Of a DNA stretch of 64,000 nt, positions 11,855 to 64,000 are shown in pieces (position 1 is the first letter of the stretch; every line of letters starts with the position of its first letter). Source of the DNA: Patiria pectinifera (taxonomy: Eukaryota > Echinodermata > Asteroidea > Valvatida > Asterinidae); the NCBI GenBank assembly GCA_029964075.1, contig CM057136.1, positions 15,736,381-15,800,380 on the forward strand, given 5' to 3'. The notes under the pieces were generated by a model that did no database searches, was not told where the DNA came from, and was given only the letters and a program-made list of their open reading frames with translations. The position numbers were made by a program, and so were the translations under genes.

Positions 11855-12979
11855 TTACAGGCGTGATTCTTCATCCATGAAGTTGTCGTATCCGCTGTTG
11901 GTGTAGCCCCGTGTTGTTTTCGTGGAGCGTCGGACCTCTCGTTCCTCAATGACCTCATCCGTGTCGTCTCCCTCATGTGAAAAGTTCATGGTGCTGGTCT
12001 CCGCGGCCCTCTTGGGGGCGCTGTGCCCTGACGAGCCACCGGACATGGAGTGAGCGCCCTCACTGCTGTCTCCCATGATGTTGTAGGTGTAGGTCTTACC
12101 GGCTCCCCCCACAGATGACGTCTCGGATTCCTCGTCGTCGATCATATCTGGAGTTTCTTCCGTCAGGGTTACCATTCCGATGCTTGTGGATACCCCAGCT
12201 GGGTAAGACTTGGAGTTGGCTCGGCGCGAGTAGGATGACGATTCGGTTTTGCTTGGGCTCTTGACTGAGCGCGAGTAGCTCTCCTCAATGCTGGTAGAGG
12301 TTGTGAAATTATTCATAGGGTCGGCGTAGTCCTTACTGGGTCGGTCTGTAGTGCGGTTGCGATCCAGACTCCCAAGTGCGGCGTACCTAGCTCCAGATCT
12401 CTCGCTATCCCGAGTCCAGGATGACCACGAGGATGCGGTATCCTCCTCGGTGATCGGACTGAGTTGGTTATCAAACTCCACCTGCTCCCGATAGCTGGCC
12501 CGGGCGGCAGCCAAGGTGTTCTGATCCCTGTACATATCGTCCTCCAGATAGGTCCCAACTCCTTGGTCCTCATCAAGCATCTGGCGGATCTCGTGAGCCT
12601 TCTCGCTCGTCAGCTTCTTGCTGGTTGACGGTCCCCCGCTGAAGCTAGCTGAGGAGTAGCTGTAAGCGGCGCCGGATGCTGAATACCCGCCCTCCTGACC
12701 GGTCAGATTGGCCGAGACTGACCCGTCGCGGTTGATGCGATTGGTCAAGGTACTGACAGACCCATCCATGTTAGCACTGTCCATAATGAGAGGACCTGTG
12801 GATGACACCGTGCGCAGCTGGGCTTTATCTGAGCCAATCCTGCCGCTGCTGACACCGCCGTTGGAGATAGTCTTGGAGCGAGTGGAGGCTGACTGACCAT
12901 CACTGACCATTGCTGTCATGACCAGGGCGTCTCGAGCAATCTCAGGCTGGATGTCTGAGAAGAAATCCATGCTGGCTTC
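11855..12979 (-). CDS. CDH23: Exon 63: cytoplasmic tail and stop
   Basis: Last coding exon, 375 codons including TAA (11857-11855). Acceptor TTTCAG precedes GAA GCC. It begins [13 protein letters not shown], is rich in Ser, Thr and acidic residues with basic RRSTK clusters, and ends [12 protein letters not shown]. The final S-x-L is a class I PDZ-binding pattern. The whole tail is longer than the roughly 270 residues of human CDH23. The long Ser-rich middle shows no recognisable domain. Confidence 0.95.
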   Translation of the reverse strand, partial: EASMDFFSDIQPEIARDALVMTAMVSDGQSASTRSKTISNGGVSSGRIGSDKAQLRTVSSTGPLIMDSANMDGSVSTLTNRINRDGSVSANLTGQEGGYSASGAAYSYSSASFSGGPSTSKKLTSEKAHEIRQMLDEDQGVGTYLEDDMYRDQNTLAAARASYREQVEFDNQLSPITEEDTASSWSSWTRDSERSGARYAALGSLDRNRTTDRPSKDYADPMNNFTTSTSIEESYSRSVKSPSKTESSSYSRRANSKSYPAGVSTSIGMVTLTEETPDMIDDEESETSSVGGAGKTYTYNIMGDSSEGAHSMSGGSSGHSAPKRAAETSTMNFSHEGDDTDEVIEEREVRRSTKTTRGYTNSGYDNFMDEESRL

Positions 12980-15900
12980 CTGAAATTATCAAAATAAGAA
13001 ACATTATTTACAAAAAAATCTACTTGCTTAAAGTATATTGGCCCCTTAGGCCAATATCATATATTTTTCAGTGTAGTCCGTATTTTGGATTCTTAACAAG
13101 CATGTCTTGGAAGTGCAAACTCTCACTCAAATTTCCATCTATTTTTTTTATAAGGTATGGATTTTTAAGGTGTTTTAAGGCAACAACCTCTACACAAAAG
13201 CTTGTGAACTATTAAAAATGAGACTTTGAAATGGTTTGAACTTTGAAGTTTTGCGGTTCTGCAGTTTTAGCTTGTAGCTTGATTGGTTTTGAAAATTTGA
13301 TGGGACATTTTCCGTACCTGTGATTCGTACTCTCTGGCCGCACCGCCTCCTAGAAGGGAAATGCTGTCTGGCCAATCATCAGGGAGACCGCCCTCTGTCT
13401 CCAGCCAAAGTGGGTTGGACCTGGGTAGGGGTATGACAATGGAAATGAAGACAATGAGTTTCAAATCGCAAATTCAATACGTCACACAGTCCACAATTCA
13501 AGGCTTGAGTCAATTAAATAAAGGTGGAGTCAATTATGCAAGGGCGGAGTTACTAATGTGAGGGCGGAGTCAATTATCAATAATGTCAGGGCGGAGTAAA
13601 TAAATGCGAGGGTGGAGTAAAAATGTGAGGGCAGATTCAATAATCTAAGGAGTCATGTGAGGGCGGAGTCAATGATGTGATGGAGGAGTCAATAATGTAA
13701 GGGCTGAGTCAATAATGTCAGGGCGGAGTAAATAAATGCGAGGGTGGAGTAAAAATGTGAGGGCAGATTCAATAATCTAAGGAGTCATGTGAGGGCGGAG
13801 TCAATGATGTGATGGAGGAGTCAATGATGGAGGGAACAGTCAATGTGAGGGCGGAGTCAATAAATGCGAGGGTGGAGTCAAAATGTGAGGGCAGATTCAA
13901 TAATCTAAGGAGTCATGTAAGGGCGGAGTCAATGATGTGCGGGCGGAGTCAATGATGTGAGGGAACAGTCAATGTGGGGGCGGAGTCAATAAATGCGAGG
14001 GTGGAGTCAAATATGTTAGGGCAGATTCAATAATCTAAGGAGTCATGTAAGGGCGGAGTCAATGATGTGAGGGCGGAGTCAATAATGTGAGGGAGGAGTC
14101 AATAATGTGAGGGTGGAATCAACATGAAGACGGAGTCAACATGAGGGTGGTGTCAGTGATTTGAGGGTGGAGTCAATAATGTGAGGGAGGAGTCAATAAT
14201 GTGAGGGTGGAATCAACATGAAGACGGAGTCAACATGAGGGTGGTGTCAGTGATTTGAGGGAGGAGTCAATAATGTTAGGGGGCGGTCTTTACCCTTGAT
14301 ATGTAGCAGTTTCCTTGACGTCAGCATCCGCTCTGGTTGCGTAGATCACAGCGGGGCTGTTCCCATGAATCTTCTTCAATAACCTGTTTATGGAGAGAAA
14401 AGTTCAAAGTTGATTTTTTTTTCAAAGGATAAACTTGTTTACAAGAAATGCAGTGTACCGCTCTCATAACCTTGGGTTATACTCCCATAAAGGCCGGTTC
14501 ACACTTCATGCGAATGCGATGCGAATTGAACGACACAAAGCATTCGCTGTGAAATTCGCCAAAGTTGAAATGTGTTCAACTTCTGCGAATTGGCAGCTCA
14601 AAACCCGCCCTGACGCCACAAATTCGTGTTGGCGTTTGCTTTCGTGCCAAGTGTGAACCGGGCTTTAGGAAGTTCTTTCGAGGTTATAATTGACTAAATA
14701 TCTGTTTTGTTCTGCCGTCTTTAAAATCTGGGGAGATCTACGTCTGCCCCTTCCAGGATCAAGGGGGGGGGGGATATTCCCCTATCCCAAAGCCCCAAGT
14801 GAATGTCCACGTAAATGTACTCACTTCCGTTGCAGACAGCACAAGATGATGATGAAGATGAGAGCTCCTAGGAAGAGCAGTAAGGCAATGGCTAGGAGAG
14901 CGATCTCAATGATGCCAAAGCCCGCCCCGCCTACACCACCCGTCAGAGCCTGAGATGAAGCAAAGAGAGCAAAATTATTCAATAATCATTCTTCTTGGTC
15001 CAAGCGTTTCATCTGCAAAACCTAGTTTCTTGGTCCTTTTTAAAGTGTGGAATTATACTTGAAAATATATCTGTTCAGACTCTTTAAGTCCTGGAAAATC
15101 CTGAAGTTTTTTTAATCCTTAAAATGTGTCAGGCAGAACGTTCTGGGAAATCTTGGAAAATCAATTATGTCCAAAACCAAGATTTCAAATGCAAGGTTGC
15201 CAGAAGGTAATGTTTGTCCGATTTGGACCACAACATTATAAAAAAAAATTCTGGAATTTTTTAGCAGGAGTCCTTGAAGAGGTCTGGATAGGATCTCAAA
15301 TTTTGCCTCTGTACATTTAGAAAAAGCTAAGTACTGGCGACGACACAGTTCTCTTTTCATTTTGTACTTACATAGACATCGACAACGCCATACCGCTGGA
15401 ACAACACTTGAATACTCTGACTATTCTCATCGATCAGCCTGAAAAACAAACAGAAGTATACATTTATAATTGTCTTTCTAGAAAGACACTGAATAATTAA
15501 CTAACCTTTACAACTCAAAACCGAATGAAACACTCTCAAATTTAGCCTAGCGGTGAACCACTACTGAGCGAGTGTTTCACAAGTGAGGGTACTTAGATCT
15601 CCTGAGGCTGAAAACAAAGCCATGGTTTTAGAAACACTTTATGGCACTCACTTTAGCACAATATTGGCATCGACTAGCGAGTTGGTTTCTGGGTCTATGA
15701 CGTGCAGTACGATCATCGTCTTATCCCTGACTGTGTTACCGTTGGCATCGATGTAGTATGTGATTGAATCCACGTTCACTACACCACCCGTGATGTTACT
15801 GATAATCCTGAAGAACAAAACAAAGAAAAATAGCTCACAAGTTTACTGAAATTGATAAAGAAAATTGCAAAATTTGGTACAGTTCATGTTTGATTGGTCA

Positions 15901-18900
15901 CATTTCTGATTATTTTTTAACACAAGAAATTTCACTAAATTCTGTACATCTTCTCGTCAAGATTCAATCATGCATGAGCCTGTAGTCCACATTTCAGCTG
16001 CTACGACCTGAGAACTAGAAAAGGACTAGAAAATAAAGCTATTCTGTGTCTGGTGATAAAAACCCCGCAAGTTTGACTACTTACTGGACAAGTTGGTCCT
16101 GTAGCTGCGTGACGGTGTCTATGTCTGAATCAACAACGACCACAACCTGCTGGTTGTTATCCAACACAAAGATCTGAAAATATCAAACAAACAAAATGCG
16201 CCAAACCCGTTGTTAAATTTACATCGCCATGAATCAGAAGAGTTATTAAAATGTGAATGAGAAATATTGAAGTTTTGCATATTAGGAGACGCCAACAGAT
16301 TAACCATGTATCAAAATCAACATGGGTTCTTTTTTAATTCTTGCAAGATGCAAATCAATAAAAATAGTCACACATCTAGACAGTCAACTGAATGACGTAC
16401 CAAAACAAAGTGCAGAGTACACTTTTTCTACTGCTTATTAAAAAGTAAAAGTGAGAATTTTCCTTGTTGGCTTTTTATCGAGTGCTAAATGATATATGCT
16501 CACCCTAACGAGGGCGGTATCACCCAGCCCAGCGATCTTGTCCGTAGCCGTTACCGTCAGATCAAAGTAGCCCCCGGCCGTGATTCCGTTCAGTAGGTTC
16601 CGGGTTCGAATGCAGCCCGAGTTCTCATCGATGTAGAAGATGTCATTAAAGGCCGTCTGGTCTTGGCCCAGAACGAAGGTAGCTGATTGGATACCGTAGG
16701 TGATAGCGCCCCCACCCCCGAGATCCAGGTCAGTGGCTTTGATGCAGGTGACCTGCGTGTTGATCTCGGCGTCCAGGGGGATGCCTGCAGGGAATTATGG
16801 GTAGGAAAGGGACACAACATTACAATGATATTACGTTAGAGTTTATAACAATCTTCATGTCACACAAATCACAACTGTGATTAATAGAAATGATTCACAG
16901 TACAGAACACATGTATGGTGATGAATATCCTTCTTTGTCTGCGACGTGTCATGGGAAAAAAATCAACTTCAGTAGACTGGGTCAAACAGAATGTTTGTTT
17001 TGCAACAAGAACGCGACTACTTGTATATGCTACAGTGTCAGGAGAAATGCTTTCATAATTTTACTTGACTACCAGTCTGGTCCACGTTTGCTAACATCAA
17101 TGACACGGTCTATAGACTCTGTGCGCAAGTACCCCCTCAACGGTAAGAAAGGGAGAGTTGGAGGACAGCACTGGCAGAGCCTATTTCAATGCATTGGCGA
17201 CGACGCCTGATGCTCACGCCAAGATGCTATGGCTTTGTGTACATTCAGACTAACATTAGTTCAACACAATTTGTGCCACACTCACACAAACCAGTAGGCA
17301 CACACGGTGTGTCCTGGAGCACGTTTTGGCGGCCCTTGAACTGGAACATGTTTCTGACGTTACAGCCGTGACCTGAAACATGTTTCCTGTGCACCGCGAA
17401 AACGACTGACCGGAAAATTGTACATGACGTCATGTTACTGCCTACGTGACTGCACACAACCCAAAAAAAATCATGCGGCGACCGGATATGATTAACAATA
17501 TTCAAAGCAAAAGTGGGAGGTTTTTTTTAAAGCGTTTCCCTAAAGTTCTAAAAAGAGATTGATGGTAAAAAGTAACGTCGTATGCTAAGCTTGTTGACCT
17601 TTCCGCCATCTTGAAACATAAGTGAACCGACCGGAAACCTCGGTTCAACTTTGGTCGAAACAATGACGTCATTTCAGTGTAACCGAAGCGCCAAAACGGC
17701 CGCGAACCAGAAACATGTTTACGGTCACAGCGCCAAAACGTGCCCCTGTTCTCTGGGCTTGCAAAGTGGTCAAAAGCGCCCTCTCTAGTTCGTGCACGGA
17801 GCCTATAGACAAGTCCGTACAGCCTTATAACTCACCAGCCGTGTACAGCACCGTAGTAAACTTTGGCCCGTTATCGTTGATATCCCCAACTGTTATCAGC
17901 ACCTCCTTGAGAGACACATCCTTGGAGATGTCGTAGGTCCCTGTCGGGACATAGCTGGCGTTGTTCGTCGCCTTGATGAGTAGGTTGTGGGTCGCGATGG
18001 TCTCACGGTCCAGATCTCCTAGGATGATGATCTCACCGGTCGTGCTGTTGATTCCAAACAGGCCTTTGTCGTTCCCACCTGTTGGTAAATGTGGCAATAA
18101 AATTTGACGATTATATTTTCACTTTAATTCTTGAAATGCACCTTCATGTAAAATTGACCTGTTGAACTATTTTTTTTTTCAATCTTGCATGTTTTGGGAG
18201 CTTTCCAATTTTTGCTTAAGGGAAATTTAATTTGACAAATTTAGGAGCAAAATGATGATGTCATTGGCAGAGGTGCCAGCTTCACAGTACATGTAGCTTG
18301 AGGGAAAAAATTGAACGAGTTCATTTTTTTATGAGGTCAATCCAGTGAGTTTGTTTTTTCGTGTTCATCCACTGCAATTATTCAGTACATACCAATATTC
18401 AAACAAAATCTGATGATGAGTTTCATTTATACCGAAAATGTTCTAATTTAAAAGAAAGCACCCATCACAGTGCCCCCAAAACTTGTATGAAATCTGAAAA
18501 AAATAAAAAAAATTGGAATTCATAAAGGGTATTTGACTATTTCAAAAAGCGTTAAAAATTTCCTTGACAACAAAAGCAAGGCTACATACCGACGATGTAA
18601 TAGTAGATGACATCATTAGGAGGCAGGTCATGATCTTGAGCTAAAGTTACAATCCCGACTGACACATTGACGTTAGAATGCTCAGTCACATTCAGTTGTT
18701 GTACAATGGCGACGTTATCCTAAATGGCAATGAAACAACAAAAGTATTTAATACTCGATAATTGCATAAGTTATTGAGTAATTTGTTTGAGATATTTTTG
18801 TTATTGTTCTTCAGGTATCATATCAAGACTCCAAGAAACAAAGGAATTGCGTCAGCAAACTTCAATGAAGAAACAAAGAAAGAAACGAGGAAACAAAAAA

Positions 18901-42900: not shown

Positions 42901-45900
42901 TAATCGGTTCAATTCCCACAGTAGTCATTTTTTTCAATCACAAGCTCCGAAATCACTTTGGTGAGGGGCCAAACCTTACCTCGGTAATGGCGTATGTGAC
43001 CAAGCCACTTAGGGATAGATCAGGGTCCGTTGCGTCCACGTCGAATACTTGAAAGCCAACATTAGCGTTCTCGTAGACGGTGGTGACGTTAGGAAGATTA
43101 GTAAATGTCGGTGCGTTGTCGTTAACATCAGACAACAGCAACGTGCCACTGTGAATAACCTGAATAAACAAATGAAATAAAGAGCCAAGAGCATTAAATG
43201 TGCTTTTAAAACCTTCATTTTCATCTTCAAAAGAAACAACAAATCGTCTCATATGAAAATAACACTCTGGACTATTTTCGTTTGGTTCTAATGGTAAACA
43301 ACTTGAAATGATTCTGGTAGGCAGAGCTAGAGGTGATAACGAAGTTTGGTGAACGGCAAAAATTTAGGGGAAATCAATTTGACCAAGTGCAGTTATACAA
43401 TGTAACAGATCATTTCCTGAACAACAGGGGCGCTTGTCAGTTTAGCATTAAGATAAAATGTAAGGTATTTTTAATTTATTCTTATTAGGGAATCACCCTT
43501 ATTTTATTACTGCAACAGAAAACAGACCCTACCTCGTTTCCGCCATCATCGGTGACCGAAACTACAAAAGTGTAGTCGGATTGAACCTAAAATGAAAAAA
43601 GTAAATGTGCACAGCTATGAAAAAGATAGAGAAATCCACCAGACGTGGAAAAATTACTACTGTACTGAAAGTGAGTTTTGTGACAATGTCAACAGTAAAA
43701 TGTCACATCATCAGGAGTTTAGTAAATTCTAATATAACCTTGTAATCTTCTCTTTTTTGGAGTCAGTCTTCAAAAATGAAATAAACAGTTCTGAAAAAAT
43801 AATGAATATAAAAGATAACAAGATTTGGGAGTATATTTTATGTTTCAGTTATTTATCAAGACTTCAGAAAGCAAATATTATATTTCTGTAAATAGTTTAT
43901 CTATTTTTGTTTTGGTTTATGAAAAGCCATCTTGAAAAACACAAACAATTGAAAAAATAAAATAATGCATACCTCTCTATCTAGCGACCCCTTCAGGGTC
44001 AAAAACGCAGACTTGGGGTCGTTTGGGTTTGGAACAATCACAAAGAGCTGCTGGGCTGTGAAGTCGTACAGGCCAAAGGTCAAAGTGTCACTGTCAGGGT
44101 CAGTGGCACGGAGTTCAACAAGAGTGGTTCCTGAAGGTATGAGGACAGTTTTAAAAAGTACGAAAGCTGCAATGGTTTGAATGCCAGGGAGTGTCAACCT
44201 CATTCCCAGGGTCAACCCCACCCTGGGATGGTTCAAGGCTATCTCAACTCTGATTGGTTACTGATGTACCACGTAGTGGATTTTTATCACGTACTTGATG
44301 ATTTTAATTTTCAACGTGTATTTCGTAATGCAGTTCACAAGAAGGACAGTTTCCAAATATATCTTGACTAAACTCACCTGCCACAGTGTCCTCCCGGATT
44401 TCAATCGATATCACTTGATTTACGAAAGATGGCGGATCGTTCGAACTGCTCACCACTGAAACAAAACAAGAACAAAAAACAAACATAAAACAGCCGTTAA
44501 AGAATGGTTTATTATAAAGGTGCAGCCATGGAGCCAACTTTGATAAGGGATGATATTTACGGGCCCCAAAAGAGTACCCTGCAAGTAGGTCTCAGTGAGT
44601 ATTCCCAATTTGTTTTTTTAAAAGTAGATGCTTTATCTTGCACTTTGAGGCATCTTTTCAGAGAATTTAGGGAATTGCTGTGATGTTATAAGTCTAGCTA
44701 GTAACTCAAACATTTTGCTAGACTGGAATTTCCTTTTTCTTAACCAGTGCCAAATTAAAAAGGACCTAAACTTTCGTAGTTTGAATGTTAACCTATACAT
44801 GCAAACGTTTTGCGGTATTCGGAACGGATGACGGATAAACATGCATCGAGCGAGGCCGGAAATATCTGTCTGCGACCTGCTCACAGCGAGCGAGGCTGGA
44901 AATATCAGGGTGTGCTACCCGCTGATGACGACCTGAACCCGTCTGGCATTGAGGTTCGTGAAAACAATCCTGTGACTGGGTCCAGTCAATGTCAACATAA
45001 TCCTATTTTTAAAAATATGTTTTTGTGATAGGTGCCAATCAAGTAATGTATAATAACAGTACATAGGGAAATTAAACTTGCAAAGACTACAATTTTTTTA
45101 TTTTTTTATATTCCACTACCACTTCAAACAGAGCGTTTGACATATTGTTAATATTAATGACCAGTCTTGTGGGAAAAAAAAAAATTAAAACCACTAGTCT
45201 TGTTCGATCAGAGAAAGCACTAGCGATCCAGTGGGATTTTAAGTCCTGTTAAATCAGCTGTGTGACTTTCTTTTCAGTTTTTCAAAATGTTCGAGTTGCG
45301 ATGCACTACAGATAGATTTCATAACCATTACTATACTGTAAAATACAACAGCTTTCAAGAACTGGTGTCGTTACCAAAACCTAATCACTTGGCACTCCAC
45401 TTTTAAGAAACCAATTATGAAGCTAGGGCTTTAGAAGATCTTAGGGGTAACAAAAGACTCTTGTGTAGCAAGAGCAATATATAGATTTCTTGTTTGATCC
45501 TCCATTGTTGCGTGGGCCTTGTGTTTTGAAAGGCAAATTGAGCAGGATGGATGCCTTTCGTGCCGGGCGGTGAAACTGTGAAGAGTTTGTCTTGGCGATT
45601 TTCCGTGTTTAGAAAGCAAACACTTGGAGTACAAAGATTTCAAGATATGAAAAGTCAATTCATGAATATAAATTGGTGTTTGTCGAAGGCTGTGGCCAGT
45701 AGATCAGAGGTTTCTCAATACTGAGATTCTGCTTTTATGAAAGGTTTGTAATTTCATTTTCAAAAAGCACAATGTAACTTTACACGTTAAAGTAAGCGAC
45801 CAAGCTTCTACTCAACGTGCTTAACTCCTTTTGGGATAAAAGCAACAACAAAACATTACAAAAAAACCCCAAAATCCTAGGATAAATTTCTTGGTTTTGC

Positions 45901-50119: not shown

Positions 50120-52426
50120 GGCTAGCAGAGGACTGTCACCGTCATAAAACCGGTGCCCCACGAGACACTGCAGTTTTGCTCACCATGACGAATGCATGCA
50201 ATGCTTCGCTGGAGTCAAAGTGCGGTACATGTATCGTGCATGCCAACAGCACTACATGTGTTTCTGGTTTAGGTTTAAAAACTTCAGACAAGCGTGCTAC
50301 ACTTCTCGCCAACTAATCAATACAAATTGTATGACTCAGTGTTAAGTCTTTAAACAATTCCGCTCCTCCTCTGATGATACATCCATTACATGATTGTAGT
50401 CTTTGTTTTTTCTTGTTATTCTTCCGAGTATTAACTTTTCATTCAGCGCAGACGGTGGAACCAGTCTCCCGATTCCCACGGTTTCTAGTACAAACACGAG
50501 CCAGAAGGAAAAGTTGATATAACGACACTCAGCCTCAGTCCTTGACAAAACCTTTGATGATTACTGAAGCGCTAAGCTTTTTCATTTCCAAAAGGCGTAC
50601 ATGCACGCACAATCAAAACTTTGCTTGTGTTCCCATCCTTAAAAACACCCCCACCTGGAGAATGTATTGTGCTTAATAGCTCCCCTTTTCTTCATTGAAA
50701 ACTGTATCTTGTAACAAAAGGGGATCATACTATTTGAGTTTTGAAGGGGGGATTGACTCCTGAAACCTAAACTTTAATATGCACCCTCTCCACAGCCTGT
50801 GACCTTTTGATATTTAAATGAGGGATATAATATGGGTTGGAGGCCAGTGAAAGGCAATTGAAAACAGCTCAGTAAACTGAGCTGTATGTAAGCAGTGGAA
50901 CACTAAACTAGCCTTTGAGTAAACTTATCAGTAAAAGTTGATTCATAAGAAGTACGGCTATGTCTCCTGAGGGGGTGCTTCACTTTTTGTGGCTGAGCAG
51001 ATTGAAAGTTAAAAATCAAGTCGCTTCTTTAGAAATGCTCTGCAAATTATTTAAAAGTTTGGGTCAAAATTGGCTTTTTTTGTAGTTAATTAATCAGAAT
51101 TGCACAAGGAAGCTTTTATTTCAAATCACGTTTCTGTCCGGCAATTTTTTAAGGTTTGCGTGTTTCAGTTTTTCCCAAGTTAGAAAGCATTTTAAATTAG
51201 AGAAAAAAGTCTGAAACAAAAACTCCACCAGAAACTAAACAAGAAAGCACCACAAAAATTAAAACTACTTAAAATAAAATCAATTTCAGTAAACTAGTGA
51301 GGTCTTTTTACCAGCTTTGAAAACAAAAATCACAAAAACAGCTGATCTAAATTAACAATTCAAAATGTTTTACAACAACCTAATTTACAGAGTTTAAAGT
51401 TTTAAACAGAAACGATTCCCACGGTCATTATTTGTTTCCCTTGGATCTGCTTGTATTACAACTTTATTCAGTTCCTGCCAAAGGGCAGTAACTTTCAATG
51501 CTTTAAAGAAAATGATTGACTTTTAAAGATTTACTTGTTTTTTTCACCACTGACAAAAATTGCTTCCACATTTTTGTAGATTTGTGGAAGTTTTGAAAGG
51601 ATTATCCACACAGGTTTGACTAGATTGTTTTTCTTAAATAATGACATTGTTTCCTTTGGAAACAATATTGCTGGGGTAAAATTCACTGCTACAAGGACAC
51701 AAATTCACATCATTGTATTGTAAGTGTATTCAATTTGTGTATTTTGATCGATATTAAATTAATACCTCCAAGAAATTTTCTAGAAACCTTAATGAATGTG
51801 GCAAAATCCAACACTGCGATGCAAATGGCATATTCTTTGCACATAGACGCGATTGGGAAATTAAGCCCCTACTACAATAACAACAAGCAGGCGCTCTCTA
51901 TTTTCATAGTTAAAGAAGGCAAAACAATTAATTGAGGGAGACAAATAAGAAATAAATGAACAAATAATGTAAAGCAGGACAGAAAAATGAAATCAGGGGT
52001 TAATCGGAGGGTATGCTGCCCTGCTGAGTTTTAATGCCGTCCAGCGCTAGTTTTGCAGCCAGGTTTAATAGAAATTCTTATCACCCTGCCACGTTTGCTA
52101 ACATCATCCACTTCGCATTTTAGCTGACACAAAAAAAAAATACTTTTCTTCACAGAATCCTGATTGTTGAAATTCAACTAAATTTCTGAACAATACAAAA
52201 AAAATGTCTCTGTGAGTGACAAGGAAAGGCAGGAATCCAATTTCAATGTATTGAAAGACCATTCTTCATGTTCTTGAAAAAAAAAAAAACACACACATGC
52301 TGCGAAAGTCGCTTTTTTAAAAATTATGCCTTAGGCCACCTTGCCACCTGGCCAAACTTCTACAGTATTCCATGAAAAACTTTTCAAGCAAGATTTGAAA
52401 ATGAACAAAGATCGATGAGTACTCAC
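50120..52426. other. Gap between LDLa exon and EGF exon 1
   Basis: Holds either an intron, or the 3' end of an upstream gene plus the promoter of the cadherin gene. An open frame ending at 50342 on the minus strand (up to 50548) could be a terminal exon after an acceptor TTGTACTAG, but resembles nothing I know. Confidence 0.4.
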
Positions 52427-52657
52427 GGCAGTTTTGTTCGTCCAATCCATCCGTGCAATCGTTGATGCCGTTACAAACCAGTTGAATGTTAATACAGGTC
52501 CCACCTGTGCATCGGAACTCCTGATTGGTGCATGGGCGTTGACAGGAAGCCTCGTCTGAACCGTCCTGGCAGTCGGGACTCTGATCGCACTGAAGGGAGC
52601 TTGAAACGCACTCACCGCTCACACAGTGGAAATAGGTGCTGCTAAAACAACCTGGTC
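52427..52657 (-). CDS. Exon U20: two LDL-receptor class A repeats
   Basis: 231 bp, phase 1 to 1. Two six-Cys modules ending [10 protein letters not shown] and [10 protein letters not shown]; the DGSDE/DGLDE acidic cluster is the Ca2+ site of LDLa domains. Donor GCC|GTGAGT. Confidence 0.95.
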
Positions 52658-55600
52658 CTGCAAACAAAACAAAATTGAAGTCTAGAGTTTTACAGTTGCA
52701 AATAACTCTGGCAAGGCAACTATGTGGCTGTTAGTTGATATCATGTGTCGTATTACTATAACTCATACATATTCATGATCGAGAGTTAAATTCTCACTGG
52801 TCCATTCACTGTCACATATCAGCCACTAGTTTTGTGAAGCCACGAGGATTCACGCACAGGATAAATACGCATTCATAGTAGACTATCGCACAGGAAGTAG
52901 TTTGTGAACCTTCAATATCTCGGGGAGCTAGTATTGACTATTCACTCCTAAACCATGTTATATTTGTGTAATATCTCATACCGAATATTAAGGAGCCAAA
53001 CACACTACTTGTAATGGTCTACTAAAGTAATATTCCATGGAAGTGTGACAGATTTATTTCAACAAATTTATTAACTTTTTTTTATCATGCAATAATGAAG
53101 TTAATATGTATGAGTTGTAATAAAAAAAAGTGGCTTATTTGGGGAAAATAGTGCAAAATAACTGGGCCCTTGAAGTTTACTTTGACAAAACCATGTACGT
53201 CACAATAGTACTACAACTATTTTGCCCATGAAGTAGTTTCACTTTTGCTGTAACTATGATCCAACCCTATTTAAGGTTTGATTTCTGGACAGTTTTGCTT
53301 ACCGAACTCGCAGTTAGTACCATCATAGCCGAACATACAGTCGCAGCTGTAGATCGTACCGAGTCTGTCCCTGATACACATGCCGCCGTTCTGACACGGA
53401 TTGGAGCTGCAGGGGTCTGGTGTACGGACAAACGAAAGAATGTTTCATGAAACAAAGAACTGCGTTCTGAGGAAGTAAAACCGGGCTTTTTCTTGAGGTT
53501 TTGTTATGTGAAATTTAGCTGACATGGACAGGGTTGACATGAGTTTGTAGTCATTTCAATTTTTTTGGGGGGGGACTCAAGACAAGTCTATCACACTTGC
53601 CATTGCTGTCACTTAGAAGCAGTTCAAAATGCAATATACAATCAAGAAATGGAAAGACTGTGACACAATGGCTTGGACGTTAGGGCTATTGTTACTATAT
53701 AATTACAATGCTGCCAGTTTTCAACAAGAAGTTAACAGCCTTCTGATATGAGGTCAAGATGAAAAGCCAACTTACCACGTGACATCTTACCTTTGTCAAA
53801 CTTTCCAAAACTACAAATAATGTTTCGTAAAATAGCTGGCTTCATTTTAATGAATGCAATCTACGTATAAAGCTCATTGCGAACGGGAGTTGAAAGTTAG
53901 ATGATATGACCCTTGTTTGTTAATAAGAAGCGGTAGCTGTGTTCTCCGCAACAGGAGAATAATCGCTGCTTTGCCTAATGGTTATCACCGCATGAGGTCA
54001 AATGAGGTCACATGGGGTCAAAGTTCGAGGGTCATATCATCTACAGCCCCTATGGAAGCTCGGACTGAACATTGAGGAAGCAAAACAAACAGTCACAGAT
54101 ATTACCACAATAAAACAAAACAAAAAGATAGGAATGGCTTTAAGCAGACAACACAGAGCCATGGAAAATTAAAATGGAATTTGGTCCACTGACTAATGAC
54201 ATTTCAGACAATTTTACTGAAAAAAAGGAAACTGCCAATGGACCAAAACCATTCTAAATGACCACGGCACATGCTCTATACAGCACCAGCAAGGTGCCTA
54301 GTGACTTACTAAAAACTATTTCACATCTCTCTCCTGAGTGCCCAAATGGGCACGCGCAGCGAAAATCGTTGGCTGCGGGGATGTTGCTACACGTCCCCCC
54401 GTACAGACAGGGGCTAAGGCTGCAAAGGTCTGTCAGAAGTGAATAAAACAGCGGTTAATGTCAACTCTATAACTACATCTATTCATATTGCTGCAGTCAT
54501 CTCGGGCTTGTCACTCGACACAATGGCACAAGGTGACATTACTATGACAAAGGTACCAGACTATTTATCTCACTGAGTTTATTTACGTAAGTACTGCCAT
54601 CTTGGTCTGATTCCTTGAAGACGCTCAACAAAAAGGCACTGGAATGCATAATTTCTGTCATCATGCCAGAGGCACCAGACTATTAACGAGACTGAATCTA
54701 TGAACATTTTCTAATTTGAAGAATACTATCTCATAAAATTCAGCAATAAAATAACACTATATATAAATCTCTAACTTGTTAAATCCATAATAAGCAGCAA
54801 CAAATATCTAACACAAAGATTGTGCTTAAGAAAACTACAAAGCTCAATAAAACTCAAGTTATAAATTGCACTCTTCAAAACTAAATCAAACCAACAACAT
54901 CCGTCTAAGGAGTTTAATACAGGCAAGCGACCTAATCTCAAGTCTCAATTTGTAACTATCTGTGAGACGACTAATAACAGACTAAGTCTCTTAGCTGCCT
55001 AGTTGCGTCTGGATGTGAGTCTACATTACCACGAATTTGGCAGGTATCACCGATGTAGCCGAAGGTACATCGGCAGAAGAAGCCAGTCGGGCCTGTGCTG
55101 TCGTAGCACGTGCCACCGTTAAGGCACGGCAGGCGACCGCAAGGGTCTAAAAAAAGCAGCAAAGAAACCAAACAGGACATAAACATGTAACAAATGCGGT
55201 GCCTATGTCACACTTCACACCAAGTTCTTCACAGTTATTACCCCTGTTCATCAGGCTATGAGACCAGGCAGTGGTATACACCCAAGGGGGGGGGGACTTG
55301 AACCCACCCCCCCCCCCAAGAGGTTGTTAAGTTTTAATTTATTTTGGTAATTATTTTTTTATTTCCACGATTTGACCTCTGTGATATGTATGTGGCCTAT
55401 TTTCGAGTAGTATAATAGGGGTGTAAGTGGCACCACAAAATAGTCTATCCCCCCCCCCAAAAAAAAAACACCCAATTTTTTTCTGTGGCCAAAAATGTTG
55501 GGCAAAATTTTTTGCAACAATTTTAACTTCTAAAAAAAAATTTAAAAAAATTGTGAGCCCCCCAAACCAAATCCTAGGTGTGCCACTGAGACCAGGGCCC

Positions 55601-58600
55601 ATTGCTCTGCAAACCACAGAATTCCACGCTAATGATCACAATTCTGCGCTAACCCTGTAAGCACAGAATCCCTAGTTACAGGACGTATAGTCATGTGCAG
55701 AAGCCAAAAGTCTTCGCTAACCCTTGAAATATGCTTACCATAAGTACATAATTTTCTGCTACACTTAGCAGGGATTTTTCGCCAACAGTAAGCAGAGACC
55801 TGAAATTGGGCCCAGTTTTCTGCGACAGCTCGAGATCAGCACAATCTGGTCTCTACACTCACAGGTACACACAGTCGTTTTTTTGCTATGCTTCCGAGGA
55901 TTGGCTTTGTGTTTTCCTTTGTTCCCTGATCTAAACCTTTCCCATAGACTTAGTGCACAAACAAGCGTTTGAGGACAATAGGCACCGTCATTCGAGGATG
56001 AATGGCCCCTTTGTGCTCCTTTTGTTGTCTGTCCTCGAGCGTAATACAATACAGGAACACACATTCTTGTTCTGTAACTGTGGGGACTACCAATTGGTTG
56101 TCCCATGGTACTATGGGGACCGAAGACGCAGTGGGGACAGCAGAAAGTCCCACAACTGAGTCCTAATTTGCCTAACAATAAAAAATAGGCCACATACATA
56201 TCACCACGGTCAAATAGTGGGACTACAAAAAACGTTGCAACCTACCGCTACTAGTGCAGGTGGTACCAGTATAGCCCGGTACACAGGTGCAAGTGAAACC
56301 GAATGAGGATGGGTTACAGATGCCACCATTCAGACAGGGGTTGGAGCTACAAGCATCTGTAATGGTGAAGAATTCAAAAAAAAATAGGCTATCACTATCT
56401 ATACAAATGACACTACTAGTAATTGATTGGCTTATATGCACTGAGCTAAACGTGCAGCAGGTGTTTTGTTAAACAAGTGCAATTTTGAGAAGAAGTAGTG
56501 CCAAAATCTACTGATCTAGAGGTGTTGTCTGATTTTGACTACCTTCTGACGCGACACGGAGGAACACAGTCATAATCAGCCAACAAGGGGGTTGTTCAGC
56601 AATTTAAAGAAATGTCTCAAATTTATGTGGGGGAGTGTGGCCTATGGTTAGGTTTTGTGATTCATGATCAGAGGGTCAGGGGTTCCAATCCTGCCGCTGG
56701 TCATATGTTGTGTCCTTGGGCAAGCCACTTCACCCCCACTTGCCTCTCTCCACCCAGGAGTATAAATGGGTACAAGCATTAGCTGGGGAGTAACCTGCGA
56801 TGGACTGGCATTCCCCTTCAGGGGGAGTAGAAATATTCTCAGTTGTTTCATGCAACTGAAACCGGAGATAAACACCGGCCTGATGGGCCACATTGGCTCG
56901 TGACAGACTTAACAACTTTACTTCAAATTTGAAATGCGAACTTGTTTGGACTGTTACTTTTCCAGCCCACATGGTTCTCCATTGCTGTATAAGAATACTG
57001 AAAATGTGGTGAAGTTGAAGATGTCTAGACGCTCACCAAGGATCTCACAGTTCATGCCAAAATAATGAGGCGGGCAGGTACATGAGTAGAGCAGACCCTG
57101 GGCTTGATAGGTGCAGACGCCTCCATTAAGACACGGAGTGGAGAGACAAGGATCTGAGATAAAAAAATAAACAACGGGAGAAACTATTCAAAACTGGAGA
57201 GTAGTGTATCTTTCTCACTAACTGGTTGCCGTGATGTTGATTTTAAAGACAATCGCTCACAATTCTGTGTGTTAATCACCAACTTTGTAAAGCTCACTGT
57301 AGCAATTTTAGCATCGTTTCCTCCCGGACTGGCTACTATTTATCATAAACGGACAAGAGGTCATTAAACAAAACAAAAAAAATCAGAATACATTCATCGT
57401 CAAAAAGCAGCTACACCAAACCTTCTATGCATGACATCACTACTTTCTCATGAATAGGTATATTACATTTGCAAAGAAATTTAATAAGCCCCAAAACAGC
57501 AAGCCATTGTTAGACGTGAACAACTTAAACCAAAGAGCATCACAACTTTTTTTTAGGATAAAAAAATTTGGTGACATGGATTTCATATCACGAATGCCTT
57601 ATTGAAGAGAAATACTCACCGAGATTTTGGCAGCGCGGTCCCAAGAACTGCGAAGGGCAGTTACAGAAGAAGGACGTACCTCCGATACCGACTTGGCATG
57701 CACCATTATTCAGACAAGGGTTAGAGGAACAGGGATCTGAGACGGTACAAAAGAACAAGATTATTTTTTCAAAAAAAGCACAAAGGAAAACTGACTGGGT
57801 GTATGATATTATTTTTTTTTCAAAATTGAAGAAAGAAATTGACTGGAGCGGGGTTTGAACCTGCGACCTCCGATTGCCGTTCCGGTGCTCTACCAACTGA
57901 GCTATCCAGCCCTTTGTTGGCGGTTCCCCATTCTATCTATATCTTTGTTCAAGGGGCGTTAGTCAGAAGCCATCCTTTGCCATTTAGCCAGGGATCATAC
58001 CACTAAGTGACCACGCTAGCAACATGAGCAATGCTGCAAATCTATGAAATTTTATTCTTTAAGGTGGTCAACACTTACTTCTGTTCTCGCATCTTTGGCC
58101 TTGGAAGTCAGGCGGACAAACACAGGTATAACTGGTCCCCAGGGGGTGGGGTTCGCAGGTGCCGCTGTTTTGGCAGGGGAAAGAGTAGCACGGATCTGGA
58201 AGAGAAAGGAATGCGATCATGAAAGAGAGAATTCTGGGTGTAAACGTTTGTCCTAATAGACACATTTTAAATTAGCATGAAGACTGACAGCCTCCGGCAA
58301 GTTCGGGCAAGGATCATTAGTCAACAGGAGTGCTTGAGTTGTGACGTAACGCACGCCTACTAATACCAAGGTTGGAATGCCTCTTGTCAAACGATGGTCA
58401 AAATGTTATCACAAAACGTTTCGGTCCTTGCACCGTACCGTGCATTGTGATGCGCGCAGCTATTGGTATTAACCAGTGAAGGAACCGTGCCCCGTGCTAT
58501 GGTTCCAAATAGTAGACAAGAGTAGTCCAAGCATCCTTCATTCGAGTGAGGTTAGTTGAATTATGGTTAACCATACACCTCGCCCGAACTTGCTCCTCAG

Positions 58601-61600
58601 AGCTTAGTCCATTTACATGCCGCTACAAAGTAAATCACACGTTCTTGCAACAGCCCCGTCTCAAGCTTGTGATGGACTTGTGAGGACTTGTGAGGACATA
58701 TGAGGACTTGTGAGGACACGTGAGGACTTGTGATGAATTTGTGAGGACTTGTGGTGATATGATTCTTACTTGGGTATTGGCAGGTGTTTCCCATGTACTG
58801 TTGCTGGCAAATGCAGGCGAAGTTCAGCCCACCGTTGATGGCCGTGCATGTACCGTCGTTAAGACAAGGACGGGTATTACAAGGATCTGAAAAACAGTCG
58901 TCAAAATTCATGTACAAGGCTACAAAAAGAAAATAAATATTTGATGAACGCTATAAATGATTCTAAAACAATTATGACCACATAAGAATCAAGAACTTTT
59001 CAAAATTTCAAAGTTTTTTACCTGGTATTTGGCAGTTTGTCCCAAAGAAACCATTGAGGCAGCTACATTCGTAGCTCAGGCCGCCGTTCACCAGGGAACA
59101 CATGGCCCCATTCTGACACGGATTTGGCAAGCACGGATCTACAAATTAAAAAAACAAAAAATTATGACCACAGACAAGAACATTTTTTGTAAACAAGAAC
59201 TGAAGTAAACATTAAATCTTCTGAACAATTGGTAATAGACATGAACACAAAACCTCACAAAATGCAGTATTTTCTTTTGAAGTGATTCGTACCATGTTTC
59301 CTCTCGCCATTACTTTGCATATTTTCTCCTGCTATACAAGATTATGAACAGAATTCTTACCAAAAAACTGAAAAACAAAGATTCCACATTTGTTATTTAC
59401 CATCGAGTTGGCAGTGGTCGCCGACGTAGCCTGCCAGGCAATTGCATGTGTATCTAGAGCCGATGTTGTCCGTCGCACACTGTCCATTATTGAAGCATGG
59501 ATTCGAGAAACAGGGATCTATGGGAAAATGAAAAGATTTGTGAGGTCTGAGGTTCCCATCTCACCAATATTTTTTTATCAGTGATGAAAATAATGAAGTC
59601 GAGGTTTGAATTCTTCCAAAATATCTATATACTGAGATGCATGTAAACAATCGTGGTCCGAGGTTCGAATCCTATTGAGGTCCATACTTTGAAGAAACAA
59701 TATGTGATAGTATAGGCAGAAGTAAAATGCCATGGAGGTTTGAACAGGCAACTGTTCGAAGGCAACACGCAACTGTTACAAGCATTTTTTTTCTGGTGTT
59801 TATGTACAATTTTCTGGTGTTTTGCAAAATCTACACTCAGTTTTTTTGTTGTCAATGTCAAGATGAGATTCTTTTCTTACTTGAAAATTGGCAGTGAACA
59901 CCGATGAAGCCTGGGTTACAGTTGCAGGTGTAGGAGGAGCCAAGGCTATTTGGTACACATACCCCAGAGTTCTGACAAGGCTGCGAGCTGCAAGGATCTG
60001 GAGTCGTAGAAATAAAATAACCTTGTTCATTTCTGCAACAACTCAAAAACCTGAATGCCTGGTTAACCTGTTAATCGCCCCAAACCGCCCTGCGTGTTAC
60101 TCACTTTTGAAAAGAGGCATCGACCAAAAGATATTCGCCCATGTTGAGTTATTCAATTATTACAAATTTGGAAATACTTGGGGCCTGACAATAATCCAAT
60201 CCTCCCTGGGTAGGCAGGTTCCCACCCCATAATCAATATCAATAGTGTACGTACCGGGAACCAGTCTGCTTGTAAGGTGCCATTTTTTGTGGACAAAATA
60301 CAAACTTTTTTTCAGAGGGTTGCAGATGCCGCAAAAAAAAAAAGAGGAGTTTGGGGTTCAAAACATAGAGGAAAAAAAATCTAACTTGTTGAAGAGTGCA
60401 GGAAATTTTAAGCGGATATTTTCTCCGCTTAGCATATTTTCAATGCTCAGTCAGTCTACCAAGTTGGTCCTTCCTGTGTCTTCTACAGCTCTGTGACTTA
60501 CTTGGATATTGACAGTTGATTCCTTGGAAGTTTGCTAAGCAACTGCAGGTGTAGATGGAGCCTACTTGGTTCGATGAGCATGCTCCACCGTTTTGACATG
60601 GGAAGGACGCGCAAGGATCTACAAAGCACACACACAAATAAAACTAGAAAATAAAAACAGTCAAAGTCACGAATACGGAGAAATTCTATGTCATGGTTTA
60701 CCCTAAAATTATCTAGATACCAACTAACTTTGGCTTAAGGGCCCATCTCAATTAATATCGAGTTTCAGATACTGTATCGGGTATAAGTTGCAAGTTTCTG
60801 AAAAATTTTTCACACAATATTCCCGCAATGAAGGCATCAGTATTGCTGAGTAAAGCAGTTGCTAACGAAAATTTCCCTTGGAACGTGTCCAGGACGAAAT
60901 ACAAATATTAGGTCCATATAAACCAATTGGGGCACCCCGTTACTGTTCCTAGACGGAGGCCCCCTTTAACGGCGTACGCATTGTGCAAGCTATGTTCAGA
61001 TAATCCGTCACAGGGCTGTTGCTGTGTACAATGCTGTCCCCATTGAAGGGGGCGTCTATGAGTGCTCAGTGATTGTGTGTCCAGATTGGTTACAGATGTA
61101 AAAAGAGAAATTTTCTTTCAATTTCTTACCGGGAAATTGGCAGTTTGGTCCTTTGTAGTTGGAGAAACAGCTACAGAAGTATCCCACCCCCTGGTCCAAA
61201 TTGAAACACGTTCCGCCATTCTGGCATGGGCTGGAGAAGCAAGAACCTAACAAGCAAAGATTTCAGGACCAAGTTGAGGCCATTTCTCCCAAGATGTGCC
61301 AATTTTTCCAAACTTCAATATTGTTTTTCCAATCACTTAAATTTCAGTCTTTTAACCAAAAAAAAAAACAGGGAGGGAGGTTGACCAGATGGAAACATAT
61401 TAATAGGTTGAATAAAGAAATTGAGTGGAATCGCGTTTGAAGCTCCAACCTCCGGATTGCCGTTCCGGTGCTCTACCAACTGAGCTATCCAGCCCTATGT
61501 TGACGGTTCCCAAATGTTATCAATATTTTTGTTCAAGGGCACTAATCGGAAACCAAAAGCCAGTATATGCCATACAGCCACGTAAGACTTTTGCAATTTC

Positions 61601-64000
61601 TATGCCCCAGTTCCATTACTATTTTGGTCATTAATAAAATCAAAAAAACAAATGACTGGAAAAACTGACTTACCCAGAGGGGTTTGACAGTTGATACCGG
61701 TATGCGTCGGTGGGCACTGACACACGTAACGGTAGTTAGGAACCTGCCAACTGCATGCCCCTCCATTGACACAAGGGTTACTATCGCACGGATCTTCAAA
61801 CAAAAAGAGGATTATTAATTAGTTATTACATTTAATTTTTTTTTCAATTTGATTTGGAGCATTCTGGTGTATTTCGCCGAACAAAATTTGAAGGCATTAG
61901 AAATTAGAAGGCGTTTTTGAGATGTGGACGATGACAGCCAAGCACGAGAGAGCGCTAGACAGCATCTACATGCGAATGCTCCAGCTCTACGACACCCTGC
62001 CCAGAGTTTCTGCTAAGGTCAGGGAGCGGAGGATGAGGCTGGCAGGCCACTGTGTGCGTTATCCAGAGCTAGCTGCGAGCCCGCTAGTGCTGTGGGCACC
62101 TGTCGATGGAGCTAGCAGCAGGGGCAGGAGGAGACTCTCTTTCGTTGACCAGTTGAAGAGGAATGCAGCACAAGAAGACACCGCTGAGCTGAAGACGCTG
62201 ATGCTGGACCGGGATGCATGGAATGCGACCATCAGAGTCTCCCGAGAAGGCGTCGGTTGAAGACGACCTCTCACATGATGATTTCTGAGGTGGTGCCATG
62301 CTGGCGAGCTAGCCACACATGATCTTAAAGACGAGGCACGTGCGCATTTTGGTAACCTATTGGCGGAATGAGCCTGGAGTGTGTGTATATTACCTGAGTG
62401 TAACTCGCGCGAGTCTGGCGCCCCACAGAAAATGGCTGTGGCCATGTAGTCTAATTGATGATACTTACTCTGAGCTGTGCCACAATTCACTCCCGTGTAT
62501 CCCAAGGCGCACTGGCAGGAGTACGTGAAACTTGTACCAGGCCACTGGCAGAGACCGTTGTTCAGACACGGGTTGCTGTTGCACGGATCTATGAGGAAAG
62601 ATGGTATAAAACGCATAAGGTACTGGTGACAAGTCTAGCGTCTATGCATGGGTGTTGTGCAAAATGCAGAAATGGCGTTCATGAGATAAGATAGCAAAAT
62701 TTAACAAGAAAGAGGGGAACTAGAATTTTACCTTGTATGATTTGGCAGTTGTTGCCGTTGTATCCTTGCAGGCATAAACACTGATAGGTCGACACTTGTC
62801 CAAACCATTGACATGTGCCGCCGTTCTGACATGGGCTAAGAGTACATGGATCTGAACAAAAAGAAAAACAAAAGGACTTGAAATGTGGATACATAATTCT
62901 ATTACAATTAAGAAGGATTGTCGCATTTTTTTTGAGTTACCCTGTTTGCCATTTTCCAGGTTTGCAGCATTGCTACTTTTACTAGTGAATAAAAGGTTTG
63001 CGGAAACACCATGTGCGAATAATTTCTCAACTAAGAGAATGGTTTTGAAAAGAACCAGAGGTATAAACTCTTTTTTACTTTTACTAGCATCAGAACTTTA
63101 CAGGTTTATGGCTTCTGACTAGCGCCCGTTGAACAAAGACATTGACACTCTGATGAACCGCCATCATAGGGTTGATAGCTCAGTTGGTAGAGCATCGGAA
63201 TGGTGATCCGAAGGTCCCAGGTTCAAGCCCCACTCCAGTCAATTTTTGCTCTACTAAAGATGAAGACATTTTCCCTTCCACCAACCACTTCACTAATTAA
63301 CCAGAAATTCCGTACTTACTCTGTACGACTCCGCAGTTTGTGCCGGTGTAGCCTGCTGCACACTGGCAAGTGAAGTCAGTACCGAGTAGCCTGCATGTGG
63401 CTCCATTCAGACACGGGGTACTAACACAGGGATCTGGAAGATTACGAAACAAAATTCAACAAAAAATGAAGAACAATTACAGTCAAATTTTAAACATTTC
63501 TGCTTTTGTCACTTGTTGTTGCTTGTTGAATACGAAACAGGAATCTGACGATGGACTTACTAGTGATTATTTGGCAGTTGTTGCCGCCGTAACCTGGCAG
63601 GCACTGACACTGATAGATTAAGGCTTGACCCTGCCAGCTGCAAAAGCCGCCATTTTGACACGGGTTGTTGTCACACGGGTCTGACAAAGAAAAAAAAAGT
63701 CATCATTTGTTAAAAACATGCACAAGACTCAAATAATGATACAATGAAAATGAATAAAAATCATATGTGAATTTTCAAAGGAATTTTTCTTTAGTCACTT
63801 GTTGTTGCTTGTTTAGTACATAAAAGGAGCCAGACGATTGACGTACTTGTGATTATTTGGCAGTTGTTGCCGCTGTAACCTGTCAGGCACTGACACTGAT
63901 AGATTAAGGCCTGACCCTGCCAGCTGCAAAAGCCGCCATTTTGACATGGGTTGTTGTCGCACGGGTCTGACAAAAATGACAAAATTAAATTTGATGTCAA
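52427..64000 (-). CDS. EGF/LDLa exon array: extension of the cadherin gene or separate gene (partial)
   Basis: Nineteen exons of 111-120 bp each encode one EGF-like domain with the six-Cys pattern PCxxxPCxNGGxC…CxCxxGYxGxxC. A 231-bp exon then encodes two LDL-receptor class A repeats. Every exon starts and ends in phase 1, so domains can be added, lost or skipped without frame change. The EGFs start D/NPC and lack the Ca2+-binding DxxE consensus. The product is presumably extracellular. The true 5' end is beyond 64000. Whether the LDLa exon splices to the EGF exon at 49942 is undecided. Confidence 0.85.
53303..53416 (-). CDS. Exon U19: EGF-like
   Basis: 114 bp, phase 1 to 1. [13 protein letters not shown] … [14 protein letters not shown]. 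Confidence 0.94.
54310..54429 (-). CDS. Exon U18: EGF-like
   Basis: 120 bp, phase 1 to 1. [13 protein letters not shown] … [14 protein letters not shown]. Confidence 0.93.
55030..55146 (-). CDS. Exon U17: EGF-like
   Basis: 117 bp, phase 1 to 1. [13 protein letters not shown] … [14 protein letters not shown]. Confidence 0.94.
55219..55950 (-). mobile_element. Interrupted SINE copy
   Basis: Tail block 55219-55263 (CTTCACAGTTATTACCCCTG) and body block from 55830 (GATCAGCACAATCTGGTCTC) are adjacent in the copy at 29.2-29.5 kb, but here are separated by about 560 bp holding C-tracts and the MITE below. Confidence 0.5.
55594..55813. mobile_element. MITE with GGGCCCA terminal inverted repeats
   Basis: Left AGGGCCCATTGCTCTGC and right GAAATTGGGCCCAG are inverted; the interior has repeated (G/C)CTAAC and TGCTTAC motifs. 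Same termini as the element at 10436. Confidence 0.65.
56246..56356 (-). CDS. Exon U16: EGF-like
   Basis: 111 bp, phase 1 to 1, the shortest of the set. [13 protein letters not shown] … [14 protein letters not shown]. Confidence 0.94.
56631..56910 (+). mobile_element. tRNA-derived SINE
   Basis: tRNA-like head (GTGGCCTATGGTTAGG … GGGTTCCAATCC), then TTGTGTCCTTGGGCAAGCCA, CACCCAGGAGTATAAATGGG, GAGTAACCTGCGATGGACTG and a 3' end GGGCCACATTGGCTCGTGAC. A common SINE layout in marine invertebrates. Confidence 0.8.
57037..57153 (-). CDS. Exon U15: EGF-like
   Basis: 117 bp, phase 1 to 1. [13 protein letters not shown] … [14 protein letters not shown]. Confidence 0.94.
57620..57736 (-). CDS. Exon U14: EGF-like
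   Basis: 117 bp, phase 1 to 1. [13 protein letters not shown] … [14 protein letters not shown]. Confidence 0.94.
57841..57985 (-). mobile_element. SINE with tRNA-like 3' part, copy 1
   Basis: tRNA-like part 57911-57841: GGCTGGA/TCCAGTC acceptor stem pairs, A box TAGCTCAGTTGG, B box GGTTCAAACCC. Preceded by a conserved 5' block (CTTCTGACTAACGCCCCTTG … GAACCGCC) shared with copies near 61.5 and 63.2 kb. The anticodon stem has mismatches, so probably not a functional tRNA. Confidence 0.75.
58079..58195 (-). CDS. Exon U13: EGF-like
   Basis: 117 bp, phase 1 to 1. [13 protein letters not shown] … [14 protein letters not shown]. Confidence 0.94.
58665..58756. repeat. ACTTGTGAGG microsatellite
   Basis: About nine imperfect 10-bp copies of GGACTTGTGA beside the donor of exon U12. 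Confidence 0.85.
58770..58886 (-). CDS. Exon U12: EGF-like
   Basis: 117 bp, phase 1 to 1. [13 protein letters not shown] … [14 protein letters not shown]. Confidence 0.94.
59022..59138 (-). CDS. Exon U11: EGF-like
   Basis: 117 bp, phase 1 to 1. [13 protein letters not shown] … [14 protein letters not shown]. Confidence 0.94.
59401..59517 (-). CDS. Exon U10: EGF-like
   Basis: 117 bp, phase 1 to 1. [13 protein letters not shown] … [14 protein letters not shown]. Confidence 0.94.
59881..59997 (-). CDS. Exon U9: EGF-like
   Basis: 117 bp, phase 1 to 1. [13 protein letters not shown] … [14 protein letters not shown]. Confidence 0.94.
60502..60618 (-). CDS. Exon U8: EGF-like
   Basis: 117 bp, phase 1 to 1. 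[13 protein letters not shown] … [14 protein letters not shown]. Confidence 0.94.
61130..61246 (-). CDS. Exon U7: EGF-like
   Basis: 117 bp, phase 1 to 1. [13 protein letters not shown] … [14 protein letters not shown]. Confidence 0.94.
61423..61560 (-). mobile_element. SINE with tRNA-like 3' part, copy 2
   Basis: tRNA-like part 61494-61423 with an intact 5-bp anticodon stem (CCGGA/TCCGG) but a damaged T arm; the 5' block TTAGTGCCCTTGAACAAAAA is retained. Confidence 0.7.
61674..61793 (-). CDS. Exon U6: EGF-like
   Basis: 120 bp, phase 1 to 1. [18 protein letters not shown] … [14 protein letters not shown]. Confidence 0.94.
61922..62260 (+). pseudogene. Non-LTR retrotransposon reverse transcriptase C-terminal fragment
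   Basis: The frame encodes [20 protein letters not shown], then [32 protein letters not shown] and [12 protein letters not shown], ending TGA. RRxRLAGHCxRxPE and MxDRxxW are the C-terminal signature of endonuclease/reverse-transcriptase LINE proteins. A stretch between RML and LPRVS seems to be missing compared with family members. 5'-truncated, intronic, antisense to the EGF exons. Confidence 0.82.
62469..62588 (-). CDS. Exon U5: EGF-like
   Basis: 120 bp, phase 1 to 1. [18 protein letters not shown] … [14 protein letters not shown]. Confidence 0.94.
62732..62851 (-). CDS. Exon U4: EGF-like
   Basis: 120 bp, phase 1 to 1. [18 protein letters not shown] … [14 protein letters not shown]. Confidence 0.94.
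63105..63250 (+). mobile_element. SINE with tRNA-like 3' part, copy 3
   Basis: Plus strand: CTTCTGACTAGCGCCCGTTG…GAACCGCC block, then tRNA-like 63169-63240 with A box TAGCTCAGTTGG, anticodon stem TCGGA/TCCGA (loop ATGGTGA) and B box GGTTCAAGCCC. The acceptor stem is partly broken. Confidence 0.72.
63320..63433 (-). CDS. Exon U3: EGF-like
   Basis: 114 bp, phase 1 to 1. [13 protein letters not shown] … [14 protein letters not shown]. Confidence 0.94.
63561..63680 (-). CDS. Exon U2: EGF-like, near-identical to U1
   Basis: 120 bp, phase 1 to 1. [18 protein letters not shown] … [14 protein letters not shown]; differs from U1 by two residues. Confidence 0.95.
63847..63966 (-). CDS. Exon U1: EGF-like, most upstream in window
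   Basis: 120 bp, phase 1 to 1. [18 protein letters not shown] … [14 protein letters not shown]. Acceptor TTTTTGTCAG; the previous exon lies beyond the window. Confidence 0.95.

Follow-up and report, generated by a model that had tools for sequence, protein, structure and literature searches.

The window, a 64,000-nucleotide stretch of Patiria pectinifera DNA, very probably contains two tandem genes on one strand: an upstream gene built of EGF and LDLa modules (gene A) and a downstream gene that appears to be the orthologue of the hearing protein cadherin-23 (CDH23). A giant EGF/LDLa-CDH23 fusion, as originally predicted from the arrangement of the modules, is probably wrong. The features on which this reading is based are as follows:

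49942..50119, minus strand: predicted coding part of CDH23 exon 1, with the ATG, a signal peptide (25 aa, ending ...LIVASA) and one EGF; in-frame stop at 50182
11855..44455, minus strand: CDH23 exons 2-63, encoding 29 EC, the membrane-adjacent domain, TM and a cytoplasmic tail ending ...DEESRL; stop-free spliced model with GT-AG introns
15372..16784, minus strand: exons of EC29 and the membrane-adjacent domain, aligning to CDH23 chain 8tri (E 5.3e-29)
14825..14949, minus strand: transmembrane exon in the splice model; 19-residue hydropathy 3.34
11855..12979, minus strand: terminal exon in the spliced model, encoding a 374-aa portion of the cytoplasmic tail with SRL at the C-terminus
50183..52426, minus strand: gap between the two predicted genes, with AATAAA at 51468 and 51120
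52427..52657, minus strand: gene A exon with two LDLa (PF00057, E 4.4e-25, 2 stretches); donor GTGAGT, phase 1
53303..63966, minus strand: 19 EGF exons of gene A, from the splice model and the tree set

The cadherin gene was modeled from sequence alone, without a transcript, by a self-trained splice-aware model with hand correction, and runs on the minus strand from 50119 to 11855 in 63 coding exons that splice, with GT-AG introns, to a stop-free product of 3,775 aa. The domain order is signal peptide, one EGF (PF00008, E 6.2e-7, at aa 26-54), 29 EC (counted from 28 linker motifs and the final EC), membrane-adjacent domain, TM, and tail, and the cadherin of the original prediction, with 29 EC, a membrane-adjacent domain and a tail, was thus recovered with a single TM exon. 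The C-terminal SRL is presumably of class I PDZ-ligand form; with it, the CDH23 trait of a single TM followed by a C-terminal PDZ ligand form appears to be present in the window cadherin (one TM exon, SRL). A minisatellite lies at 13577-14281 within an intron of the tail region, and elsewhere in the window a tandem satellite occupies 3674-9434 (323-bp unit, 17.9 copies, 95% matches).

Sequence comparison supports the window cadherin as an invertebrate CDH23 orthologue, in line with the identity first proposed for it. The membrane-adjacent region matched CDH23 chain 8tri with E 5.3e-29, colinear over 183 residues, versus 7.9e-10 for the best PCDH15 chain, and the CDH23-type membrane-adjacent domain follows the last EC. 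Residues 3-265 of 8tri pair with EC27, EC28, and the beginning of EC29, and EC27-29 with the membrane-adjacent domain align together with residues 3-452; by summed score in the EC27-29 PDB search, multi-repeat chains from other cadherins come first and 8tri is eighth. EC1-2 aligned colinearly with CDH23 chains 3mvs (8.7e-32) and 5w4t (Cadherin 23; 6.9e-39), but multi-repeat chains from other cadherins were higher in sum (e.g., CELSR1 8vy2, 1.7e-73), and this alignment by itself would not decide CDH23 identity; for EC9-11, other cadherins likewise outranked CDH23 in summed score. PCDH15, another long cadherin, has a membrane-adjacent domain too (PF23206), yet the window protein matches it more weakly than CDH23, and PF23206 itself scored 24.0 bits on the window cadherin, under the cut-off of 27.

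Vertebrate CDH23 (PDB 2wcp, 3mvs, 8tri, and others) aligns with the window cadherin in EC1-2 and from EC25 to the membrane (EC numbers taken from background knowledge), and the two have in common the membrane-adjacent domain, TM, and a PDZ-ligand-like C-terminus. They differ at two points. Vertebrate CDH23 has 27 EC repeats, whereas the window cadherin has 29, so the CDH23 repeat order of the original prediction holds for the membrane-proximal end and not for the total; we believe the two-repeat surplus relative to human CDH23 to come from three extra repeats near EC24, offset by one missing from the first half, and the count of 27 is treated as a vertebrate trait, variable rather than defining for CDH23. 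Mature vertebrate CDH23 starts at EC1, a trait not known to define the family, whereas in the window cadherin one EGF separates the signal peptide from EC1.

Searches of the species' own genome covered 613.5 Mb. Among the 106 candidates scored for the N-terminus of CDH23, none pointed to a paralogue or haplotig: identities of 79-96% occurred only at the window's own place on C8, and all others were at ≤54%. A separate PCDH15-like gene was found on C8 as well, about 5.2 Mb away from the window (C8:10553137-10590933), with a membrane-adjacent domain (PF23206 at C8:10556432, E 4.4e-25) and a series of cadherin exons upstream of that match. A scan of viral contigs returned 27 pattern matches and no relative.

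Upstream of the cadherin, 20 EGF and two LDLa modules had been predicted on the same strand and in matching phase. The modules themselves were found, as 19 array EGF exons (18 of them in the splice-aware model, which missed the exon at 54429), one EGF at 50 kb, and two LDLa in one exon, all on that strand; the matching phase, however, carries no information, since every one of the 19 upstream exons in the splice-aware model is phase 1-1. The EGF/LDLa exons in the window are the 3′ part of gene A, which extends beyond the window to a signal-peptide exon ∼40 kb upstream (C8:15826821-15826911; extended coordinates 90441-90531), reading MSVSRLRIPLPWLLAASLLAILGHVTA and in phase with the first EGF exon of gene A. 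In the adjoining 40 kb, the gene A model adds ∼20 more EGF exons, ∼8 copies of a domain of ∼140 aa (X domain), a CUB domain (PF00431, E 2.9e-12), and the signal peptide, for a total of signal peptide, EGF, CUB, ∼8 X domains, ∼39 EGF, and 2 LDLa; these counts are a reading of the model, in which low-scoring small exons are uncertain. No TM exon of gene A was seen on reading the model translations, and, as far as seen, gene A would encode a separate, secreted extracellular protein.

Three copies of the X domain were compared with Pfam and none matched; the domain possibly represents an undescribed extracellular domain family. Its copies lie at extended coordinates 75046-86246 and also on C15, C2, and C675, with 85 matches genome-wide that are mostly clustered. 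Near-identical EGF exons (consensus beginning PC[DN]) occur at 63561-63966 and in the adjoining stretch, including a 201-nt pair at 63498/63784 that is 89% identical, and indicate that exons of gene A have recently been duplicated in tandem. A search for a gene A paralogue by the LDLa pair yielded, after the window itself, a best match of E 1.8e-13 at 44% identity and partial matches of up to 59%. Among the matches listed, the only other place with X domain and LDLa within about 100 kb was C13:18.81-18.91 Mb, where a motif scan over 120 kb picked up a single short X-like string and nothing of EGF, LDLa, or cadherin type. The 10 kb downstream of three X-domain clusters contained no EGF, LDLa, or TM match (open frames of at least 30 aa, hydropathy cut 2.6). 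LDLa-type matches were also present at C11:13975826-13979839, mostly in one 1281-aa open frame that is apparently intronless. Within the EGF array, a 57-nt tRNA-like repeat at 57872-57928 and 61455-61511 (96% identical) is likely a tRNA-derived SINE or tRNA copies; ARAGORN called a tRNA-Ala at 57840-57911.

The main gap in the two-gene case is the last exon of gene A, for which nothing convincing was found in the 2.2 kb between the genes or in CDH23 intron 1. Between 50180 and 52426, 20 acceptors scored at least 2, with no coding-like terminal exon among them, and in CDH23 intron 1 the acceptors scoring at least 4 gave nothing coding-like. A terminal exon at 52020 (acceptor 3.0; 49 aa, hydrophobic stretch 2.36) was judged unlikely at a coding score of -50.1, and the reading in which gene A ends by running on past the 52427 donor was rejected at -21.1.

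This missing exon is one of the points in favor of alternative first exons or two promoters, under which a short CDH23 would start from 50119, and a long isoform would splice 52427 to 44455, skipping the signal-peptide/EGF exon and joining the gene A ectodomain (CUB, ∼8 X, ∼39 EGF, 2 LDLa) to EC1 in place of the free cadherin tip. That junction is in frame at phase 1, with ordinary to good sites (donor 3.73, acceptor 5.42), but phase-1 modules would match in phase in any case, and several acceptors in the gap (e.g., 52123, 52185, and 51474) do offer very short terminal exons. Fused models also recur in the annotation of several echinoderm species (PMC10734073); in that study, however, all echinoderm CDH23 models but that of Lytechinus were judged incorrect fusions with a non-cadherin locus. 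The Lytechinus CDH23 mRNA is described there as having a 5′UTR with stops plus a signal peptide, and the fused Strongylocentrotus purpuratus (S. purpuratus) model carries a signal peptide internally, as expected of an annotation artefact (PMC10734073). We consider the long isoform unlikely, and return to the two-gene reading, with which the published picture of falsely fused models fits: the echinoderm CDH23 loci share with the window a non-cadherin locus upstream and a signal peptide where the cadherin part begins, the difference being that the upstream gene is described here domain by domain (PMC10734073). Among the titles listed in literature searches, no further paper dealt with CDH23 fusion or N-terminal EGF in invertebrates, and in the available main text on anemone CDH23 the word EGF is absent (PMC3899209).

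The 50-kb exon could be the first coding exon of CDH23 or an internal EGF exon. ATG 50119 opens a hydrophobic stretch that ends in ASA directly before the EGF, with an upstream in-frame stop at 50182. As originally predicted, 52427 would instead be spliced to 50052 or 50046, making the 50-kb EGF one more EGF of a giant protein; the phase fits, AG dinucleotides are present at both positions, and the EGF resembles those of the array: a small tree joins it to the one at 56356 (support 0.81), which would fit a common origin of the modules. Both acceptors, however, sit inside the signal-peptide reading, so these junctions would cut through it, and both score under all 81 model acceptors. In leave-one-out scoring, 50052 reached 1.96 and 50046 -0.28 against a model minimum of 2.29 (0/81 as low), and with a generic matrix 3.36 and 2.47 against 3.59; the acceptor test leans, since 50052 falls short by little and acceptor score helped to select the model exons.

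The sequence upstream of these acceptors is also coding-like, holding an open signal peptide. Its 72 nt had a coding score of +1.4. The equivalent 72-nt flanks of 80 other exons averaged -24.2 (sd 8.3), and 0/80 of them, as well as 0/21 of the stop-free ones, reached that value; with other training sets the score was -0.6 (without controls) and +0.97 (reached by 0/82 controls). The score is no clean test for a signal peptide because that of gene A, used as calibration, scores just -6.7, a value reached by 2/82 controls. Signal-peptide-like readings also arise by chance from polypyrimidine tracts, with 5/81 control exons passing a loose rule, so the hydrophobic stretch counts for little by itself. 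The calibration and the 52020 candidate add caution about single tests, not about their sum; taken together, the acceptor, coding-score, and chance-reading tests suggest that the 50-kb exon is most likely the first coding exon of CDH23, and the junctions from 52427 to 50052 or 50046 are highly improbable. The junction from 49942 to 44455, also part of the original prediction, proved good, being in phase with a generic donor score of 8.17 and acceptor score of 5.42. It is this strong in-phase junction, together with the nature of the ∼10 hydrophobic residues available there (the acceptor pyrimidine tract, too short for a usual signal peptide), that makes it equally implausible that the 50-kb exon lies outside CDH23 and that the cadherin starts at EC1 from ATG 44486, to which the exon at 44455 does stay open upstream.

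In the two-gene reading, transcription of the downstream gene would give a CDH23 whose signal peptide and single EGF come from the first coding exon and precede 29 EC, membrane-adjacent domain, TM, and tail. The protein would act in adhesion or as a tether, as a long cadherin made rigid by Ca2+, with the single EGF at its outer tip, ahead of EC1, and the product of the PCDH15-like gene is a possible binding partner. An N-terminal extension ahead of EC1 is therefore retained from the original prediction as one EGF and not as a large EGF/LDLa array, as the cadherin and gene A each have their own signal peptide. Given these two signal peptides, that of gene A lying ∼40 kb upstream, and the published judgment on fused models in other echinoderms, the giant fusion is unsupported (PMC10734073).

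The idea of a giant N-terminal extension on a tip-link-type cadherin is accordingly set aside and tied to the CDH23 annotation problem reported for echinoderms (PMC10734073). The remaining finding is modest: an invertebrate CDH23 that would carry one EGF in front of EC1, with a PCDH15-like gene present in the same genome. In light of the EC1-2 handshake of vertebrate CDH23, it raises the question of whether that handshake may tolerate, or even use, an EGF cap.
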